Shown: positions 15,040 through 23,967 of the stretch, one piece after another
Numbering within the stretch: position 1 is the first letter of the stretch
Layout: each line of letters opens with the position of its first letter
Assembly (NCBI RefSeq): GCF_016595495.1
Contig: NZ_JAENIM010000047.1
Location: 79,945-143,944 of the forward strand
Reading direction: 5' to 3'
DNA: 64,000 nucleotides
Source: Persicirhabdus sediminis
GTDB taxonomy: Bacteria; Verrucomicrobiota; Verrucomicrobiia; Verrucomicrobiales; Akkermansiaceae
Position numbers and translations under genes: made by a program
Notes under the pieces: model-generated
Seen by the model: only the letters and a program-made list of their open reading frames with translations
Databases searched by the model: none
What the model was told of the DNA's origin: nothing

Positions 15040-15600
15040 CTATGCCCAATCGGTCTTCACTTCTTGGATCTGACCTTGCTTGTCTTCATATTTGAGAAAA
15101 CCGTGCTCCACACCGTATTCGTAAACGCACTTGGTCACCTTGACGTCAAAGGCACAGTACTCGGCAATTTTCATCACCCAGCTATGATCGCCAGTCTTTT
15201 TATACTGTTGCCACCAGCGCAGCGCATCCAGACCATCGGCTGATTTTCCTGAACCCAGAGACGCTGACGCCAGCGCATCTAACTTCAGCCGGTGACCTAA
15301 TTCTTTTTCCACCTCCAATAGCATGTCGAGATTCACTGTCTGTTCAGCTAGATCGTAGATGGTATATCCCTGCAGAACTGGGTAATCAAAATAGATATGG
15401 TTGTAGCCAACAACAAGGTCAGCGCGAATCAGCTGGTTCACCAAAGCATCGGCATCGGCTTCCCCATAAATGCGGTATTCATCTAACTTCGTGCTGTAGG
15501 TCACGCCCACAGACATGCCCATTTTGTCTTTATTCGACGCCCCACCAACATCACTGAAGCTTCGCTGAGTCTCTAGATCGAAAAAAACAATATCGCGCAT
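15040..15600 (-). CDS. DnaQ/RNase H-fold 3'-5' exonuclease-like protein
   Basis: This 186-residue cytoplasmic protein has a DEDD exonuclease layout. Exo I is FFDLET near residues 6-11, Exo II is VVGYNHIYFDYPVL near 63-76, and Exo III is YCAFDVKVTKCVYEY near 148-162, where the Asp lies in a YxxxD context as in the DEDDy type. It is shorter than polymerase-associated proofreaders and has no polymerase domain. It resembles predicted PolB-like or ribonuclease H-like exonucleases. It is convergent with the acyltransferase, with one base between the stops, and divergent from the Ni-SOD gene. Its substrate (DNA or RNA) is not known. Confidence 0.8.
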   Translation of the reverse strand: MRDIVFFDLETQRSFSDVGGASNKDKMGMSVGVTYSTKLDEYRIYGEADADALVNQLIRADLVVGYNHIYFDYPVLQGYTIYDLAEQTVNLDMLLEVEKELGHRLKLDALASASLGSGKSADGLDALRWWQQYKKTGDHSWVMKIAEYCAFDVKVTKCVYEYGVEHGFLKYEDKQGQIQEVKTDWA

Positions 15601-15686: not shown

Positions 15687-16139
15687 ATGAAAAAATTCAT
15701 CCTTCCCACACTGCTGGCAGCTACAGCATTCACCCTAGCCCCTACTCCTTCAGCTGACGCTCATTGCCAAGTGCCATGTGGCATTTACGACGATGCTAAC
15801 GTGCTCGCTGAAATGAAAACCGACATCGCTACCATCAAAAAAGCCATGGGCCAAATCACCGAGCTGGCTGGCGATAGCAAAAATGCCAACCAAGTCACCC
15901 GCTGGGTAAATAACAAAGAACAACACGCGCAGAACATCCAGGACACGGTGGCAAAATACTTCCTCGCTCAGCGCATCAAGCTGGATGAATCCAACAGCGA
16001 AGAATACATCAAGAAGCTCACCCTGCTCCACCAGATCACTGTTTACGCCATGAAGTGCAAACAGACCACTGATGTAGAAAATGTCACTAAGTTAGACGCC
16101 GCCTACCAGGCATTCGTCAAAGCCTATCACGCGCATTAA
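15687..16139 (+). CDS. sodN: Nickel superoxide dismutase with a Sec-type signal peptide
   Basis: This enzyme disproportionates superoxide using a Ni ion bound by the N-terminal hook. The hook HCxxPCGxYD is present as HCQVPCGIYDD, beginning at His26; His26, Cys27 and Cys31 would be the nickel ligands (His1, Cys2, Cys6 of the mature chain). Residues 1-25 are a conventional signal peptide: KK, then the hydrophobic LPTLLAATAFTLA, then SADA directly before His26. Signal peptidase cleavage after ADA would expose His1. The mature chain would be 125 residues against about 117 in Streptomyces. No separate SodX-type leader peptidase gene is adjacent. It is followed by a strong bidirectional terminator. 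Confidence 0.93.
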   Translation: MKKFILPTLLAATAFTLAPTPSADAHCQVPCGIYDDANVLAEMKTDIATIKKAMGQITELAGDSKNANQVTRWVNNKEQHAQNIQDTVAKYFLAQRIKLDESNSEEYIKKLTLLHQITVYAMKCKQTTDVENVTKLDAAYQAFVKAYHAH

Positions 16140-16147
16140 TTTTAACC

Positions 16148-16187
16148 AAAAAAATGCCCAGCTGGACCTACCAGCTGGGCATTTTTT
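16148..16187. terminator. Bidirectional terminator between sodN and mtnP
   Basis: An 11-bp perfect stem (TGCCCAGCTGG with CCAGCTGGGCA) and a 5-base loop are flanked by A7 and T6. It lies between two convergent genes and can terminate both. The stem is built from two copies of the CCAGCTGG palindrome. Confidence 0.92.
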
Positions 16188-17094: not shown

Positions 17095-17200
17095 GGCCAG
17101 CTAAAAAAGATCCGCAACGAAAGACTAATTATGAAACGCCTATTGCTCACCAGAGAAATCAAATTTGACACCACCACTCTTTTCTATTAATAACAAATGT

Positions 17201-17722
17201 ATGAGGTCGCACATTCACATCTTCGCTAGCATCATCATGATGCTCGTTGGCGTGTCATTTGCTACCTGCATGGCAGAGCACTACGGCATCATTGATAACC
17301 CATGCTGCACTCACGAACACAAGCAGCCAGTTGAAATTATCGAATGCAGCAGCCAGCACTGTGATGATTCTCACACAGTTAGCGTCGATGAAACTGAGCA
17401 CGAGCATTCTGAAACTCCAGCTCACCACCATCACCAACACAATACCCACCCCGATGCTTGCTCGCTTTGCCTAATTATCGACAAAGGCTACACTCGGCCA
17501 GACCATGATCTCGGGGTTTCTAGCGTCTTAAATCAACTTCTTTCTAATGACGCCCACCTTTGGCTCAGCCACCTCAGACCGTGGGATCATCTACCTAATC
17601 TCGAGGTTCCTCCGCGAGAACTCATCGATGCTAGTAGCTGGGAGAAATCCCCGCAATTCCTAACATCTTCCATTTTCTATATACCTGTGACCACTCCAGT
17701 GCGTGGTCCAAATTTGGGTTAA
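17201..17722 (+). CDS. His/Cys-rich exported protein at the head of the metal-efflux operon
   Basis: I do not recognise a named family. The 173-residue product has an N-terminal hydrophobic segment (residues about 6-22) and then a region rich in His, Cys and acidic residues: PCCTHEHK, ECSSQHCDDSH and a HHHHQH cluster ending in CSLC. These can bind soft or borderline metals in the periplasm. The C-terminal third is less biased, with WLSHLRPWDHLP. The ATG at 17201 places the signal segment correctly; a TTG at 17165 would extend it. It precedes a CBA-type efflux system, so a sensor, chaperone or sequestration role is inferred. Confidence 0.72.
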   Translation: MRSHIHIFASIIMMLVGVSFATCMAEHYGIIDNPCCTHEHKQPVEIIECSSQHCDDSHTVSVDETEHEHSETPAHHHHQHNTHPDACSLCLIIDKGYTRPDHDLGVSSVLNQLLSNDAHLWLSHLRPWDHLPNLEVPPRELIDASSWEKSPQFLTSSIFYIPVTTPVRGPNLG

Positions 17723-17783
17723 TCGGAGCTCGTCATTACCGCCAAGCATTTTTGGCTGACGATTTTTGCTCCCCTTCATGACG

Positions 17784-17810
17784 ACAAAGGCACCCGCTTT
17801 GTGCCCTTGT
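17784..17810 (+). other. Leader hairpin upstream of the efflux channel gene
   Basis: ACAAAGGCAC pairs with GTGCCCTTGT (10 bp, one mismatch) around a 7-base loop, in the 137-base gap between the His-rich gene and the TolC-type gene. There is no solid U-run, so it may be an attenuator, an mRNA-stability element or a weak terminator. Confidence 0.4.
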
Positions 17811-17859
17811 TTAGCCGGATGATCTCCATCCCCATGTAAGCAATTACCCAAATTTCATT

Positions 17860-19095
17860 TTGAAAAATACATATCTTAAAATCACATCTGTTAGCCTGAT
17901 ATTACTAGCTGGACTCATTCCAGCTGGCGCTCAGGAAAGCCTGCTTCTCACCCTGCGATCTATTCCTGACCGCGTGAAAAAGCAAAACCCAGACCTCGCG
18001 GCAGCTCGCCTACAAGTCAATGAAGCCATCGCGCGCAGCAAGGCAGCTGGCCGCCTCAGCAACCCAGAGTTAGAATTTGAATACGAAGGTACTAGAGGAT
18101 CGAGTGAGGCATCTGGCTCCATTGGCATTGTGCAAAAATTCCCTATCACCAGCCGGCTCAAACTAGAAAAAGCCGTGAGCCTAGCGGAGATAGCAGAAGC
18201 AAAAATCGAGATCCAAGACTTCGAACGTCAGCTGATAGGCAATGCCCAACAACTACTCATTGAAATCCAATCGATTGATAAACAACGCAGCTTGCTCAAC
18301 AAACAAATCGCCAATGCTAACGAACTGGCTGATTTCATCAAACAAGCCGCTGAAAAAGGCGAACGATCAATCCTCGATGCTGGCCAAGCCCGCCTTGAGG
18401 CTGCTCAGCTATCCAATGAAATTCGCCAACTCAAAGCAGAACAAGCCAAGCTCACCGGCGACATCAAGACCCTCCTTGGGCTTCCTGTCAGCGCTCGAGT
18501 AAAAGTGGCCGACAAGCTCCCAGCTATCGAAACTCCCCAGCTAGCAATCACACCGCAGAACCGCGCCGACTACCAGCTAGCCAAACAAAAAGAACTCACT
18601 AGCAGCCAGCTGATAGCGCTCGAACGAGCTAACAGATATGAAGATATCGAAGCTGGCATTCACGGTGGGTTAGAAAAATCACAAGACCATCCAGATCCCT
18701 ACGAAACGGAGACTAAGATTGGCTTGAGCATCACCATTCCCCTGCCGCTGTGGAATAAAAATGAAGGCGCCATCGAAGAAGCCCAAGCACGCCAGATCCG
18801 AAGCCAGAAGGAAACTGTAGCGCTAGAAGCAAATATCAAACAAGAAGCGACCACCGCAAAAGAAGAAATGTTGGAATGGGCGAAGCTAGCTAGAGAAGTT
18901 CAAGCCGAGCTCCTTCCCCTAGCTGAGACACAAGTCGTGCAGCTCAATGAGGCCTACATCAATGGCCAAACTGACCTTCAGTCCGTGCTGAGATCGCGTG
19001 AGCAATTGCTCCATCTATCATCATCCTTGATCAACGCGACTAAGGAATTCCACCTCGCTCGTGTGCGTTTCCTCTGCGCACTTGGCAAAAACTAA
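17860..19095 (+). CDS. TolC-family outer-membrane efflux channel (CzcC/CusC-like)
   Basis: This forms the outer-membrane exit duct of a tripartite metal efflux pump. It starts with TTG at 17860, supported by the signal peptide that follows directly (KNTYLKITSVSLILLAGLIPAGAQ region, residues 1-25). The remainder is almost entirely helical, with the twofold repeat expected of OEP proteins: KKQNPDLAAARLQVNEA early, and ETKIGLSITIPLPLWNKNEG near residue 290 marking the second strand-turn region. The length of 411 is usual. It is the first of four close genes; its stop is 19 bases before the adaptor start. Confidence 0.88.
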   Translation: MKNTYLKITSVSLILLAGLIPAGAQESLLLTLRSIPDRVKKQNPDLAAARLQVNEAIARSKAAGRLSNPELEFEYEGTRGSSEASGSIGIVQKFPITSRLKLEKAVSLAEIAEAKIEIQDFERQLIGNAQQLLIEIQSIDKQRSLLNKQIANANELADFIKQAAEKGERSILDAGQARLEAAQLSNEIRQLKAEQAKLTGDIKTLLGLPVSARVKVADKLPAIETPQLAITPQNRADYQLAKQKELTSSQLIALERANRYEDIEAGIHGGLEKSQDHPDPYETETKIGLSITIPLPLWNKNEGAIEEAQARQIRSQKETVALEANIKQEATTAKEEMLEWAKLAREVQAELLPLAETQVVQLNEAYINGQTDLQSVLRSREQLLHLSSSLINATKEFHLARVRFLCALGKN

Positions 19096-19114
19096 CTCAC
19101 CCACTTTCTCTATC

Positions 19115-20281
19115 ATGAAATTTTTCACCGCTATGGCAGCAGCCATACTCAGTAGCGCCATCATATCACCAGCCCAAGAGAAGGGCATGTCAGCTGAAGA
19201 AATTGCCAATACTATCATCCTCGATGACGCCAAAGTGCGCAACCTCGGCATCAAGGTGGTAGAAACTAACGAAGCTGATTTTGAAACTACGGTCTTCAGC
19301 ATTGGCCGCATTGAAGAAATCCCACGCCAGCACTCAGTACTCAGTAGCCGCATTGCTGGCCGCGTCGTTGAAATTAACGCCGTCGAAGGAGATACAGTTA
19401 GTAAAGGTGACGTCCTCGTCAAAGTGGAAAGCCGCCAGCCAGGCAGCCCGCCACCAGTCATCGAGCTGACATCACCACAAGACGGTCTCGTTATGCTTAG
19501 CCATATTCGCATCGGCCAGCCAGTTGAGCCAGCTAACGAACTCATGGACATTTCCGACCTCTCCACAGTATGGGCCGTAGCTCAAGTCCCAGAAAAAATC
19601 GTTAGCCAACTAAAAACCGGCACCCAAGCCCATATCAGAATTCCCGCGCTTGGCGGCACAAATTTCGACGGTCAGTTGATTCGTTTTGACACTCAGGCGA
19701 GCCGCCAAGGAGGAACGATAGGCGCCATTTTTCAAATCCCTAACCCAGAGCTGAAACTTCGCCCAGGAATGCGCGCTGAGTTTTCTATCGTCACTAGCAA
19801 ACGCCAGAACGTCATGTCAGTCCCGCGCAAAGCCATTCAAGGTGACGTCGCCAAACGAGAAGTTTTCATCAAACACTTCGAGCTGGAAAATACCTACGTG
19901 CGCACTCCAGTAGTCGTTGGCGAGATGAATGATCAATACGCGGAAATCATCAACGGGCTATTTCCCGGCGACCTCGTCGTTACTGATGGATCCTATTCAT
20001 TAGGTTTTGTTGGCGCCGGTAGTGGCATGTCATTAAAAGAAGCGTTAGACGCAGCTCACGGCCACGAACACAACGAAGATGGCACCATTGTCACCGAAGA
20101 ACAAAAAGCAGCGCGAGCTGGCTCCGACGGCCACGATCACGCTGAAGGTTCGGCTTCGTCCAGCCAACTGATCTTCATGCGCATCGCTGTTGGTATTTTG
20201 TTAGTTCTACTTGTCGCCAGCGGCATCAAGTCGTCCAAAGACGCCAAGACCATCGCTCAATTAAGCAAAACTAAAAACTAA
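19115..20281 (+). CDS. RND periplasmic adaptor (membrane-fusion protein, CusB/CzcB-like)
   Basis: This protein bridges the inner-membrane RND pump and the outer-membrane channel. The ATG at 19115 gives a signal peptide (MKFFTAMAAAILSSAIISPAQ, with cleavage near residue 20), whereas the longer frame overlaps the channel gene. Domain order: a barrel-sandwich region with RIAGRVVEINAVEGDTVSKGDVLVKV, a short hairpin, GRIRIGQ-like and MDISDLSTVWAVAQVPE, then the beta-barrel and membrane-proximal domains. The tail has a His-rich stretch (HGHEHNEDG and DGHDHAEG) followed by a C-terminal hydrophobic helix (about residues 355-375), an unusual addition for this family. 388 residues in all. Confidence 0.9.
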   Translation: MKFFTAMAAAILSSAIISPAQEKGMSAEEIANTIILDDAKVRNLGIKVVETNEADFETTVFSIGRIEEIPRQHSVLSSRIAGRVVEINAVEGDTVSKGDVLVKVESRQPGSPPPVIELTSPQDGLVMLSHIRIGQPVEPANELMDISDLSTVWAVAQVPEKIVSQLKTGTQAHIRIPALGGTNFDGQLIRFDTQASRQGGTIGAIFQIPNPELKLRPGMRAEFSIVTSKRQNVMSVPRKAIQGDVAKREVFIKHFELENTYVRTPVVVGEMNDQYAEIINGLFPGDLVVTDGSYSLGFVGAGSGMSLKEALDAAHGHEHNEDGTIVTEEQKAARAGSDGHDHAEGSASSSQLIFMRIAVGILLVLLVASGIKSSKDAKTIAQLSKTKN

Positions 20282-20288
20282 CATTGCC

Positions 20289-23200
20289 ATGCTTAATTAT
20301 CTCATTCGTTTTTCCCTACGCCAGCGGGCGCTGATCATGATGATCGCGCTCACCTTGCTAGCGCTGGGTATTAACAGCGCAATCAAGCTGCCAGTTGAGG
20401 TTCTCCCCGATCTCACCAAACCCACAGTCATTCTGCTAACCGAGTCTCCCGGGCTGGCTCCTGAGGAAGTTGAAACGCTGGTGACTGTGCCACTAGAAAA
20501 CGAGCTCATGGGCGTCACCGGAGTCGATCGCATCCGCAGTATCAATGACGTTGGTCTGTCGCTTATCTATGTGGAATTTGACTGGGGAACTGACATCTAT
20601 CGTGCACGCCAATTTGTCCAAGAGCGGCTTGTTGGCATCACCGAAGATCTACCTAACGGCATCACACCTTACATGACTCCAGCAGCCTCGCTGATGGGGC
20701 AAATCATGCTAGTGAGTGTCACCGATCCCACAGGAAAAACAGAACCTCGCGAGCTGCGGTCTCTAGCTGACTGGACCATTAGCCGACGAATCCAAAGCTT
20801 ATCAGGCATCGCCGAAGTCCTATCCATGGGCGGTGGAGTCAAACAAGTTCAAGTCCAGCCAGACCCAGAACGCATGTTGTCACATGACATCGACTTCGCC
20901 GAACTCAGAGAAGCCGCAGCCAACTCGGTTAGCAACACTACTGGTGGATTCTTGGATGAAGGCAGCCAAGAGATCATGGTGCGCAATCTAGCAATGACCA
21001 GCGATCTCGAGTCAATTAGCAATACCGTGGTCAAATACCTCAACGACAGGCCTATCCTGATCAAGGACGTCGCCGAGGTTGTATGGGGCGTACAGCCCAT
21101 GCGCGGTGATGCCGGAGCTAACGGCCACCGCGGCGTCATCATCTCTATCACCAAGTCTCCAGGGTTTGATACCATCGAACTCACTGAGCGCTTAGACGAC
21201 ACTCTAGCTGAACTGCAAGCCAGCATGCCAGCAGGCGTAGAGGTCAAGGCCATCTACAAACAACGTGAGTTCATCGATCTCGCCATCGGCAATTTGCTAG
21301 AAGCGCTGCGCGATGGAGCCATCATGGTCAGCTTGATTCTCTTCCTCTTTTTGCTCAATTTCCGTATCACCCTGATCACGCTAACAGCTATCCCGCTCTC
21401 TCTGGGAATTGCCTTCTTTGTATTTGACCTATTCGACCTCAGCGTCAACTCAATGACCCTTGGAGGTCTGGCTGTAGCCATTGGCATGGTCGTTGATGAT
21501 GCCATCGTTGATGTGGAAAATGTCTTCCGCCGATTGCGAGAAAATGCCAACTTACCCCTAGCTCAGCAAAAAGCTAAGTTAGACGTGATTGCTTCAGCTT
21601 CCGCTGAGGTAAGAAGCTCCATTCTGTACGCCACTATCCTGATTATTTTGGTATTCATTCCGCTGCTAGGCCTCAGCGGCGTGGAAGGAAAACTATTCTC
21701 CCCCATTGCCATTGCCACGATTGTTAGCATGTCAGCATCCTTTGTGGTCTCGCTAACGGTTATCCCTGTACTGTCATCATTCTTCCTCAATCCAAAGAAA
21801 AACAAAGTCCACCGCGACGGATTTTTGGTGCGTTTGTTAAAGTGGATATTGAAGAATACGTGGCTCAGGTTAGCGCTGGCTCAGCCATTCATGGTCATGG
21901 CAATTGCGGCCATGTTGCTGGTTGCAGCGGCTTTGCTCTACCCGCAGATGGGATCTAACTTCCTGCCAGCATTTCGCGAACCCTCAGCAATGATTGCCAC
22001 CACCACAGCTCCGGGCACCTCGCTAAAACAAACCACACAAATAGCTGAAAAAGCCACCGAGTTACTGCAAGAGATCCCTGAGGTTCAATCAGTCGCCTAC
22101 CGTGTTGGCCGCGCTGAAAATGGTGACCATGTGGTGCCAGTTTCCACCGTCGAGATCGATGTCGAATACAACTACGGCAATGATGCGCGCAGCCGCCAAG
22201 AGGTCCTAGACGACATGCGCGAAACGATGGCATCTATCCCCGGAACCTTCAGTGTCGTTAGTGGCCCACTAGCTGATAGAATAGGTCACATGCTCAGTGG
22301 CGTTCCAGCTAAGGTCGCGGTGAAGATCTACGGCCCCGACCTCGATCAACTGCGAAAAATTGGCACTGATATACAACGAATAGCCAAGTCCATTCCAGGG
22401 CTGGAACAAGCTCGCATCGAGCAACAAGCGTCCATCCCGCAGTTGCGCATCGAGGTGAACCGCGATCGAGCTCAAGCTTACGGCATCTCGCCAGGTGAAA
22501 TTAATGGCCAGCTGGCTACTCTGCTAGGTGGTGAATATATTTCTGAAATCTACGACGGTGAGCGGATTTACGACATCGTGGTTCGCCTGCCGCTAGAATG
22601 GCGCGAATCACCAGACAAGCTCGCTAACATCTACCTAGATACTCAAAGCGGGCAACGAATTCCGCTAGAGTACGTCGCTGATATTAGACAAGCTACAGGC
22701 CCCAATAACATCATGCGGGAAAATACGCTGCGTCGCTTCATCGTTAGCATCAACCCAAGCAGCCAAAACCTAGTCGAGCTCGTTGATGAGCTACAAGAAA
22801 AAGTGAACAACGAACTCACACTACCACACGGTTACTCGGTGAGTTACGAGGGTGAATACGTCGCCCAACAAGAAGCAAAAAACCGCATTTTCATGATGTC
22901 AGCCATCGTGCTCTTTGTCGTCGCCTTCCTGTTATTCAGCTATTTCGGCTCCTCGGTATTCACCCTGCAGGTGCTCGCTGACATCCCAGTGGCGCTCATC
23001 GGCGGCGTTTTCCTCACCTATCTAACTTTGAACAATATCAGCATCGCTACTTTAGTTGGCTTCATCGCCATTACAGGGATTGCCGCGCGCAATAGCATCA
23101 TGATGATTTCTCACTACCTACACCTGATGAGACACGAGGGTGAAGCCTTCACGAGAGAGATGATAGAACGCGGAACACTAGAGCGCTTAGTTCCTGTTTT

Positions 23201-23417
23201 GATGACGGCGATTTCAGCAGGAGTAGCCCTCATTCCGCTCGTTCTAGCAGCTGAAGACCCTGGCAAAGAAATCCTCAATCCTGTGGCCATCGTCATTGTT
23301 GGCGGACTGATCACCAGCACTGTTCTCGGGCTGGGACTCACTCCCGCTGTATTTTGGGCCTTTGGACGAAAGGCTGCTCACCGTGTGGTGAAACGTAAAT
23401 CACCAGCAACTCAGTAA
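20289..23417 (+). CDS. Heavy-metal RND efflux pump (CusA/CzcA family)
   Basis: This proton-driven inner-membrane pump exports metal cations through the adaptor and channel encoded just upstream. The 1042 residues show the RND pattern: one membrane helix at the start (SLRQRALIMMIALTLLALG), a large periplasmic loop, a block of helices around residues 340-530, a second large loop from about 555 and a final helix block from 860. The helix-4 motif reads AIGMVVDDAIVDVEN, fitting AIGx3Dx6EN as in CusA (Cu+/Ag+) better than the DFG form of CzcA. Metal specificity is nonetheless unproven. It starts 7 bases after the adaptor. Confidence 0.93.
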   Translation: MLNYLIRFSLRQRALIMMIALTLLALGINSAIKLPVEVLPDLTKPTVILLTESPGLAPEEVETLVTVPLENELMGVTGVDRIRSINDVGLSLIYVEFDWGTDIYRARQFVQERLVGITEDLPNGITPYMTPAASLMGQIMLVSVTDPTGKTEPRELRSLADWTISRRIQSLSGIAEVLSMGGGVKQVQVQPDPERMLSHDIDFAELREAAANSVSNTTGGFLDEGSQEIMVRNLAMTSDLESISNTVVKYLNDRPILIKDVAEVVWGVQPMRGDAGANGHRGVIISITKSPGFDTIELTERLDDTLAELQASMPAGVEVKAIYKQREFIDLAIGNLLEALRDGAIMVSLILFLFLLNFRITLITLTAIPLSLGIAFFVFDLFDLSVNSMTLGGLAVAIGMVVDDAIVDVENVFRRLRENANLPLAQQKAKLDVIASASAEVRSSILYATILIILVFIPLLGLSGVEGKLFSPIAIATIVSMSASFVVSLTVIPVLSSFFLNPKKNKVHRDGFLVRLLKWILKNTWLRLALAQPFMVMAIAAMLLVAAALLYPQMGSNFLPAFREPSAMIATTTAPGTSLKQTTQIAEKATELLQEIPEVQSVAYRVGRAENGDHVVPVSTVEIDVEYNYGNDARSRQEVLDDMRETMASIPGTFSVVSGPLADRIGHMLSGVPAKVAVKIYGPDLDQLRKIGTDIQRIAKSIPGLEQARIEQQASIPQLRIEVNRDRAQAYGISPGEINGQLATLLGGEYISEIYDGERIYDIVVRLPLEWRESPDKLANIYLDTQSGQRIPLEYVADIRQATGPNNIMRENTLRRFIVSINPSSQNLVELVDELQEKVNNELTLPHGYSVSYEGEYVAQQEAKNRIFMMSAIVLFVVAFLLFSYFGSSVFTLQVLADIPVALIGGVFLTYLTLNNISIATLVGFIAITGIAARNSIMMISHYLHLMRHEGEAFTREMIERGTLERLVPVLMTAISAGVALIPLVLAAEDPGKEILNPVAIVIVGGLITSTVLGLGLTPAVFWAFGRKAAHRVVKRKSPATQ

Positions 23418-23448
23418 TTAAAAACTTACACCTAACTAATACTAATCT

Positions 23449-23967
23449 ATGACAAAAAAATATAACAAACTCGCTCTGCTCTGCAGTACCGCCTTTGCCC
23501 TTTCCGCTGGGATTCTCAGCGCAGAAGAACACAATCACCCAGGTGGCTGCGGCCATGATCACGGCACTGTGAAAAAAGAGGCTCACGCCCATGATCACGC
23601 CGAAGTCGCCGGTCCTAACCATGGCCGCATTCTGCATGATGTGAGCCCACACGCTGAACTATTTGTCACCGCTGATAGACTAGTCAAAATCACCTTCATT
23701 GACGATGAAGGCAAGGCGATCGCTCCAGCTGAACAATCAATCTCAGCGGTCTGCGGCAATCGCTCAGCGCCAACAAAACTCACCTTTGCAAAAACTGGTG
23801 ATAGCTTCACTTCTGAGCAGCCACTACCAGCTGGAACCAATGTGGCCACAGTATTGCAGGTTAAAATGAGCCCCGATGCTCAGACTAAAAATATCCGCAT
23901 CAACCTAAACCTAGCTGACTGCCCGACATGTGATTTCCAAGAATACGCATGCAACTGCGAACATTAA
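23449..23967 (+). CDS. His-rich exported metal-binding protein of the efflux operon
   Basis: This is the last gene of the metal-efflux operon, 31 bases after the pump. It has a signal peptide (about residues 1-26, ending GILSA|EE), then a His-rich segment (HNHPGGCGHDHG, then HAHDHAEV) that can bind metal, a beta-rich central domain, and a C-terminal Cys cluster (CPTCDFQEYACNCEH). Family not recognised; similar small His-rich proteins often accompany CusABC/CzcABC systems. A periplasmic metallochaperone for the pump is an inference from position and composition. Confidence 0.75.
   Translation: MTKKYNKLALLCSTAFALSAGILSAEEHNHPGGCGHDHGTVKKEAHAHDHAEVAGPNHGRILHDVSPHAELFVTADRLVKITFIDDEGKAIAPAEQSISAVCGNRSAPTKLTFAKTGDSFTSEQPLPAGTNVATVLQVKMSPDAQTKNIRINLNLADCPTCDFQEYACNCEH

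Follow-up and report, generated by a model that had tools for sequence, protein, structure and literature searches.

A gene at 15687-16139 of the window, the whole 64,000-nucleotide stretch of Persicirhabdus sediminis DNA analysed here, encodes what is most probably an exported nickel superoxide dismutase (Ni-SOD, SodN), which would leave the cytoplasm through Sec, be cut by signal peptidase I and take up nickel in the periplasm. Ni-SOD is commonly portrayed as cytoplasmic and dependent on a dedicated protease. For the enzyme at large we lean towards two deep branches, one that SodX matures in the cytoplasm and one that leaves through Sec, is matured by housekeeping signal peptidase I and receives its nickel outside; the latter would extend over some ten or more phyla and could be exchanged during evolution for Tat-exported Fe/Mn-SOD or for SodC.

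The sodN gene, its surroundings and the predicted fold

The gene and its neighbours read as follows (window positions):

15040-15600, minus strand: RNase_H_2 protein, upstream neighbour of sodN
15687-16139, plus strand: sodN, intact open reading frame, ATG at 15687, TAA ending at 16139, 150 amino acids
15687..15761, plus strand: predicted Sec-type signal peptide MKKFILPTLLAATAFTLAPTPSADA, 25 amino acids, from sequence, charge, hydrophobicity and the -3/-1 residues A-D-A
15762..15788, plus strand: Ni-hook HCQVPCGIY, mature residues 1-9, with H1-C2-x-x-P5-C6 at 15762-15779
15762..16136, plus strand: mature Ni-SOD domain (PF09055), 125 amino acids, predicted four-helix bundle
16149..16187, no strand: probable terminator, a perfect 17-nucleotide inverted repeat ending in T's, 3' of the stop codon
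16195-17094, minus strand: S-methyl-5'-thioadenosine (MTA) phosphorylase (mtaP), downstream neighbour, convergent with sodN
17165-20281, plus strand: OEP outer-membrane factor and HlyD/CusB-type adaptor
20289-23417, plus strand: large RND-type pump, named by reading the sequence
23449-23967, plus strand: small His-rich protein, named by reading the sequence

The sequence-only reading had described a Ni-SOD with a 25-residue signal peptide ending ADA before His26-Cys27, and the open reading frame, strand, frame and motif all bear this out. sodN is a standalone gene between the RNase_H_2 protein and the convergent MTA phosphorylase, with no sodX among the adjoining genes, as had also been claimed. 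The repeat at 16149..16187 is, to judge from its letters, the probable terminator between sodN and mtaP; it is absent from the list of an automated terminator scan, probably because the stem runs into the T's. A heavy-metal efflux set (17165-23967, plus strand) lies ~1 kb downstream of sodN.

We compared the surroundings of sodN at 80 loci from named genomes, the best 80 of at least 568. All-against-all clustering of the 633 open reading frames around these loci gave no cluster present in more than 8 of them, other than sodN itself, and no recurrent peptidase neighbour; this lack of a recurrent neighbour ruled out an operon or a dedicated nickel gene beside sodN at those loci. By reading of the sequences, the neighbourhood of sodN includes genes for a Fur/PerR-like regulator and for a desulfoferrodoxin-like protein at L150, L190 and L208; at L141, L194 and L206, a metal-type ABC transporter and its periplasmic binding protein are encoded within ~3 kb of sodN. 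No NicO-type nickel permease was found in the window's genome. Such permeases occur in 8 of the 145 genomes of the window's family, and their distribution (3 of 69 genomes with SodN, namely G009, G029 and G047, versus 5 of 76 without) ruled out a link to SodN. A tblastn search of phages and a search of viral contigs returned no copies of SodN.

The product matched PF09055 (Sod_Ni), its sole Pfam domain, with 111 bits (cut-off 25). Against the NCBIfam sodN equivalog TIGR02753 it scored 44.3 bits, below the cut-off of 90, so that the protein is a Ni-SOD by Pfam and falls short of the curated equivalog level; for comparison, the SodN proteins of Nonomuraea and Novosphingobium scored 162.6 and 155.2 bits. 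Every one of the 49 aligned precursors matched TIGR02753 (best E 4.8e-16). The hook residues H1, C2, P5, C6, I8 and D11 are invariant across 17 aligned relatives, and H, C, P, C, G, I and D across 49. We take His1, Cys2 and Cys6 to be the nickel ligands by analogy with Streptomyces NiSOD, in whose structures nickel is held by His1, through its free amine and imidazole, and by the thiolates of Cys2 and Cys6.

AlphaFold2, run on the alignment of 49 precursors, returned a model of mean pLDDT 90.9 in which the mature part is a four-helix bundle and residues 5-16 of the leader form a helix of their own outside it. Solved NiSOD structures topped both fold rankings. In VIA, the model matched 1q0d with Z 14.9 and an rmsd of 1.8 over 113 residues (next unrelated fold, Z 12.3); in Foldseek, the best hit was to 3g50, with a weak E of 0.012 and a probability of 1.00. 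By sequence, phmmer with the window protein gave no match in the PDB at E<=0.001, and NiSOD entries were found with a profile only (E 0.002). Such divergence (44 bits against 90 for TIGR02753, PDB NiSOD via a profile only) might suit an exported four-helix protein whose N-terminal His-Cys binds nickel or copper for a purpose other than superoxide dismutation, and other secreted metal binders with an N-terminal His are described in part of PMC12537917. We regard this as very unlikely, since the hook H-C-x-x-P-C-G-x-Y is fully kept and NiSOD structures rank first by fold. Thus, the hook, the Pfam domain and the predicted bundle identify the gene as a Ni-SOD, which would be expected to bind nickel, form the hexamer and be active.

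The leader, its cleavage motif and SodX

The window leader consists of 25 residues with Lys at positions 2 and 3, a hydrophobic core (best 10-residue Kyte-Doolittle mean 2.0) and the end ...P-S-A-D-A, followed by H-C-Q-V-P-C at 26-31; MKKFILPTLLAATAFTLAPTPSADA stops exactly before HCQVPCGIYDD. By the simple rules on which we base the cleavage call (-3/-1 rule, hydrophobicity, charge), its n-region, core and -3/-1 pair are those of a predicted substrate of Sec and signal peptidase I.

To compare signal regions among relatives, we read the leaders at 123 SodN loci of the same family and phylum (69/69 family and 59/61 phylum matches, from partly shared genomes) and at the 80 named loci, the best 80 of at least 568 confirmed, with start codons assigned by rule. 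The two phylum matches left out, G285 and G275, begin at profile positions 23 and 74, so that their leaders are missing. Removal of identical sequences left 177 distinct precursors. In 170 of these 177, an allowed -3/-1 pair lies immediately before the hook His; note that the counts are not fractions of all Ni-SODs, because the named loci were fetched by the pattern HC[QE][VIL]PCGI, which excludes other hooks, and because the sequences are related. Shuffling the last 12 leader residues (2000 rounds) gave a mean of 56.8 and a maximum of 80 of 177. After thinning to <50% leader identity, the rule was kept in 121 of 128 precursors (shuffled mean 39.6). Ala, Gly or Ser at -1, a Lys or Arg within the first 12 residues and a hydrophobic core of at least 1.8 were each found in 171 of the 177.

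The rule is broken in seven precursors (L099, L128, L145, L155, L161, L185 and L204), with Pro at -1 in L128 and L185 and Leu in L155. In the Chitinophagales L145, L161 and L204, a signal peptide is followed by a spacer (...EPV|HC, ...VDPV|HC and ...LANP|HC), and after a signal-peptidase cut 2 to about 25 residues would still precede the His, so that either another periplasmic cut or a hook lacking the N-terminal amine is implied. In L099 (G139:C188, 1001-1387, minus strand), ubiquitin (PF00240, 101 bits) is fused directly to SodN (...LRLRGG|HCQVPCGIFDD). L099 sits in a bacterial assembly, where it is probably algal sequence caught in a metagenome bin; its fusion is a third route to a free His1, through a general protease. 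A lipoprotein was rejected by eye, as the Cys lies at +2 of the cut and none of the 177 leaders has Cys at -1.

The sequence-only reading had allowed either nickel loading outside the cytoplasm or export of the folded enzyme. The window leader lacks RR; the genome does encode TatC, so Sec would not be used for want of Tat. Among the 177 leaders, RRx[FLMIV] occurs in 2 and any RR in 4; the former count favours Sec and ruled out Tat as the main export route. If nickel were instead inserted in the cytoplasm and the folded, loaded protein exported through Tat or another route, to be cut last, the TatC of the window's genome and the twin-arginine leaders on the second Fe/Mn-SODs of its relatives would be in keeping. 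This order of events is nevertheless quite improbable, given the scarcity of twin arginines in these leaders, their lack in that of the window, and the fact that nickel in NiSOD structures needs the free His1 amine, which is absent before cleavage. Of the two possibilities, loading outside after unfolded export through Sec is thus the likelier, and the folded one is disfavoured.

A genome search for sodX had been proposed as a check; in the window's genome (96.66% complete), SodX (TIGR02754) had no match at E<=0.001. None of the 145 family genomes and none of 50 named SodN genomes had a match over the cut-off of 63.25 bits. By itself, this last result is weak, since the cut-off misses two likely true SodX neighbours, whose best NCBIfam model is TIGR02754: that of Nonomuraea (53.9 bits, divergent) and that of Novosphingobium (41.3 bits, downstream). 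Both match Peptidase_S24 and Peptidase_S26, the latter the signal peptidase family. Weaker matches were present in 24 of the 145 family genomes and 16 of the 50 named ones (best 35.4 bits, mostly with partial cover of the model); the best, at L209, reads as an ordinary signal peptidase I.

These weak matches in some relatives leave some room for a cytoplasmic Ni-SOD of the actinobacterial and cyanobacterial kind, with a leader cut inside the cell by a SodX-like peptidase that went unrecognised. A small residue before the His is also found in SodX-type leaders (...VASA|H in Nonomuraea, ...EAQA|H in Novosphingobium), so that -1 does not discriminate and the hydrophobic core is the plain difference between the branches: the two SodX-type leaders have values of 0.14 and 0.43, versus 2.0 in the window. 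As core and positive n-region are present in nearly all precursors and missing in those two, and as the window's genome lacks a TIGR02754 match, the 80 named loci (best 80 of at least 568) lack a recurrent peptidase neighbour and a cytoplasmic-type Fe/Mn-SOD is already present, we consider processing inside the cell unlikely. The proposal that signal peptidase both exports the enzyme and creates His1 remains the best-supported reading, with 170 of 177 -3/-1 pairs and no SodX match.

In a quick tree, the three sequences that make up the SodX-type side (Nonomuraea, Novosphingobium and Streptomyces) stood apart on a long branch (SH-aLRT 95), with most forks on the other side unresolved. By NCBI ranks, that other, signal-peptide side comprises Verrucomicrobiota, Planctomycetota, Lentisphaerota, Bacteroidota, Ignavibacteriota, Calditrichota, Thermodesulfobacteriota, Myxococcota, Elusimicrobiota and several candidate phyla, nearly all as metagenome-assembled genomes. 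As far as sequences indicate, the signal-peptide branch thus covers about ten phyla and is far from the three SodX-type Ni-SODs compared. The leader comparison supports an exactly cut leader as the likely rule for this whole branch and not a peculiarity of the window gene.

Exchange with other superoxide dismutases in the family

If the Ni-SOD is exported, a cytoplasmic SOD is still needed and another exported SOD should not be. SodN is present in 69 of the 145 family genomes. Fe/Mn-SOD is present in 137 of the 145, that of the window included, and in 62 of the 69 with SodN, the remaining 7 being 58-93% complete. Two or more Fe/Mn-SOD matches were found in 2 of 69 SodN genomes versus 37 of 76 without SodN (Fisher p 5.8e-11, shared ancestry ignored). 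In the two exceptions, G017 and G020, the second matches are open frames of 26 and 60 residues, which we take as fragments.

The N-termini of these enzymes differ in type. All 20 SodN genomes read have one bare, cytoplasmic-type Fe/Mn-SOD, which starts with MAHT, MAYE, MAFE, MPHE, MSHQ or the like and continues into the first conserved segment with no leader. In the two-match genomes without SodN (26 of 37 read), 24 of 26 have one bare and one twin-arginine copy (example leader, L218: ...DRRSFLKLSIAAGAAAIAPAARA). Three loci in these counts were assigned by eye: L239 and L243, where an RR lies upstream of the ATG, and L261, whose motif starts VP. The twin-arginine copies are one of each pair in L218-L257, and L279, L287, L288 and L289. 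The two genomes that break the pattern are G070, with two copies lacking twin arginine, and G105, with one split gene.

SodC was found in none of the 69 SodN genomes versus 7 of 76 without SodN (Fisher p 0.014, shared ancestry ignored). Of these 7, five have two Fe/Mn-SOD matches as well and another has four, so the exported-SOD slot is not strictly single. It can also be empty: 38 family genomes without SodN, mostly of genera g3 and g16, lack both SodC and a second Fe/Mn-SOD. The trade-off is kept within mixed genera (Fisher p 0.0025 in g7 and 0.015 in g14). On a tree of the cytoplasmic SOD from 40 genomes chosen by state, there were 4 changes of state, giving 4 independent pairs (p 0.125), too few for the test to reach significance.

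From its exchange with twin-arginine Fe/Mn-SOD and SodC, the Ni-SOD seems to fill the exported-SOD slot in the window's family. The swap with the Tat-type enzyme in relatives independently supports export, and the trade-off with SodC and a second Fe/Mn-SOD fits a SOD role, against the idea of a metal binder with another purpose.

Proposed route and comparison with known systems

On the exported reading, Sec would carry the precursor out of the cytoplasm, and signal peptidase I would cut at Ala25-His26 during export, removing 25 residues. The same cut would give the nickel hook its free N-terminal amine and its His1, making a dedicated SodX unnecessary. The mature chain would fold as a four-helix bundle, presumably into the NiSOD hexamer, and be loaded with Ni(II) in the periplasm, where it would remove superoxide while a separate Fe/Mn-SOD serves the cytoplasm. 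The absence of twin arginine despite TatC makes unfolded export and outside loading likelier. Oxidation of the hook's two cysteines could occur in the periplasm, which we count against this route.

If this is correct, an entire Ni-SOD branch would reside in the envelope and owe its metal site to the general signal peptidase, nickel would have to enter that two-cysteine site outside the cytoplasm, and a sodN without sodX need not mean the absence of an active Ni-SOD. A survey of Ni-SOD diversity reportedly appeared in 2008. In the literature searched, which covered few subscription papers, we found no branch-wide rule, case against SodX or swap with twin-arginine Fe/Mn-SOD, and, in the portions covered, no discussion of Ni-SOD export by signal peptidase except in PMC12537917. 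There the signal peptide of the Ni-SOD of Roseiconus lacunae (WP_230780104.1), a planctomycete of the PVC group, was used as bait and retrieved many Ni-SODs. Ni-SODs with signal peptides are thus already implicit in print. This enzyme and that of the window both have a signal peptide directly before the His; location, SodX independence and SOD exchange are absent from the passages of PMC12537917 consulted.

In Streptomyces, SodN is processed by a cognate peptidase, SodX, encoded alongside (part of PMC3919588). The window enzyme and actinobacterial SodN (1q0d, 1t6u) have in common the hook HCxxPCGxYD, the four-helix bundle and the removal of a leader to free His1. In contrast to the 14-residue, non-hydrophobic leader of Nonomuraea, the window leader is a 25-residue one of Sec type; the window enzyme also lacks SodX and scores 44 bits against TIGR02753, versus 162.6 for Nonomuraea. 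In cyanobacteria, sodN, sodX and sodT are grouped (excerpts of PMC4284471), and the SodN-SodX(-SodT) unit likewise has a Ni-SOD needing leader removal (excerpts of PMC4284471 and PMC8346466), whereas the window has no adjacent sodX and the 80 named loci (best 80 of at least 568) have no conserved neighbour. There are also cyanobacterial strains that carry sodN and lack sodX. In the ubiquitin-Ni-SOD fusions of algae (sections of PMC11354881), His1 is exposed as well; the window enzyme has a signal peptide and no ubiquitin domain.

Closest in proposed role, superoxide removal outside the cytoplasm, are periplasmic SodC and the Tat-type Fe/Mn-SODs, whose folds and metals are unrelated. Copper and zinc are required by SodC, and the twin-arginine Fe/Mn-SODs of the relatives would travel folded. 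Close relatives within one family thus seem to meet the exported-SOD task with either a Sec enzyme given its metal outside or a Tat enzyme given its metal inside, a naturally occurring contrast between the two strategies in related genomes.
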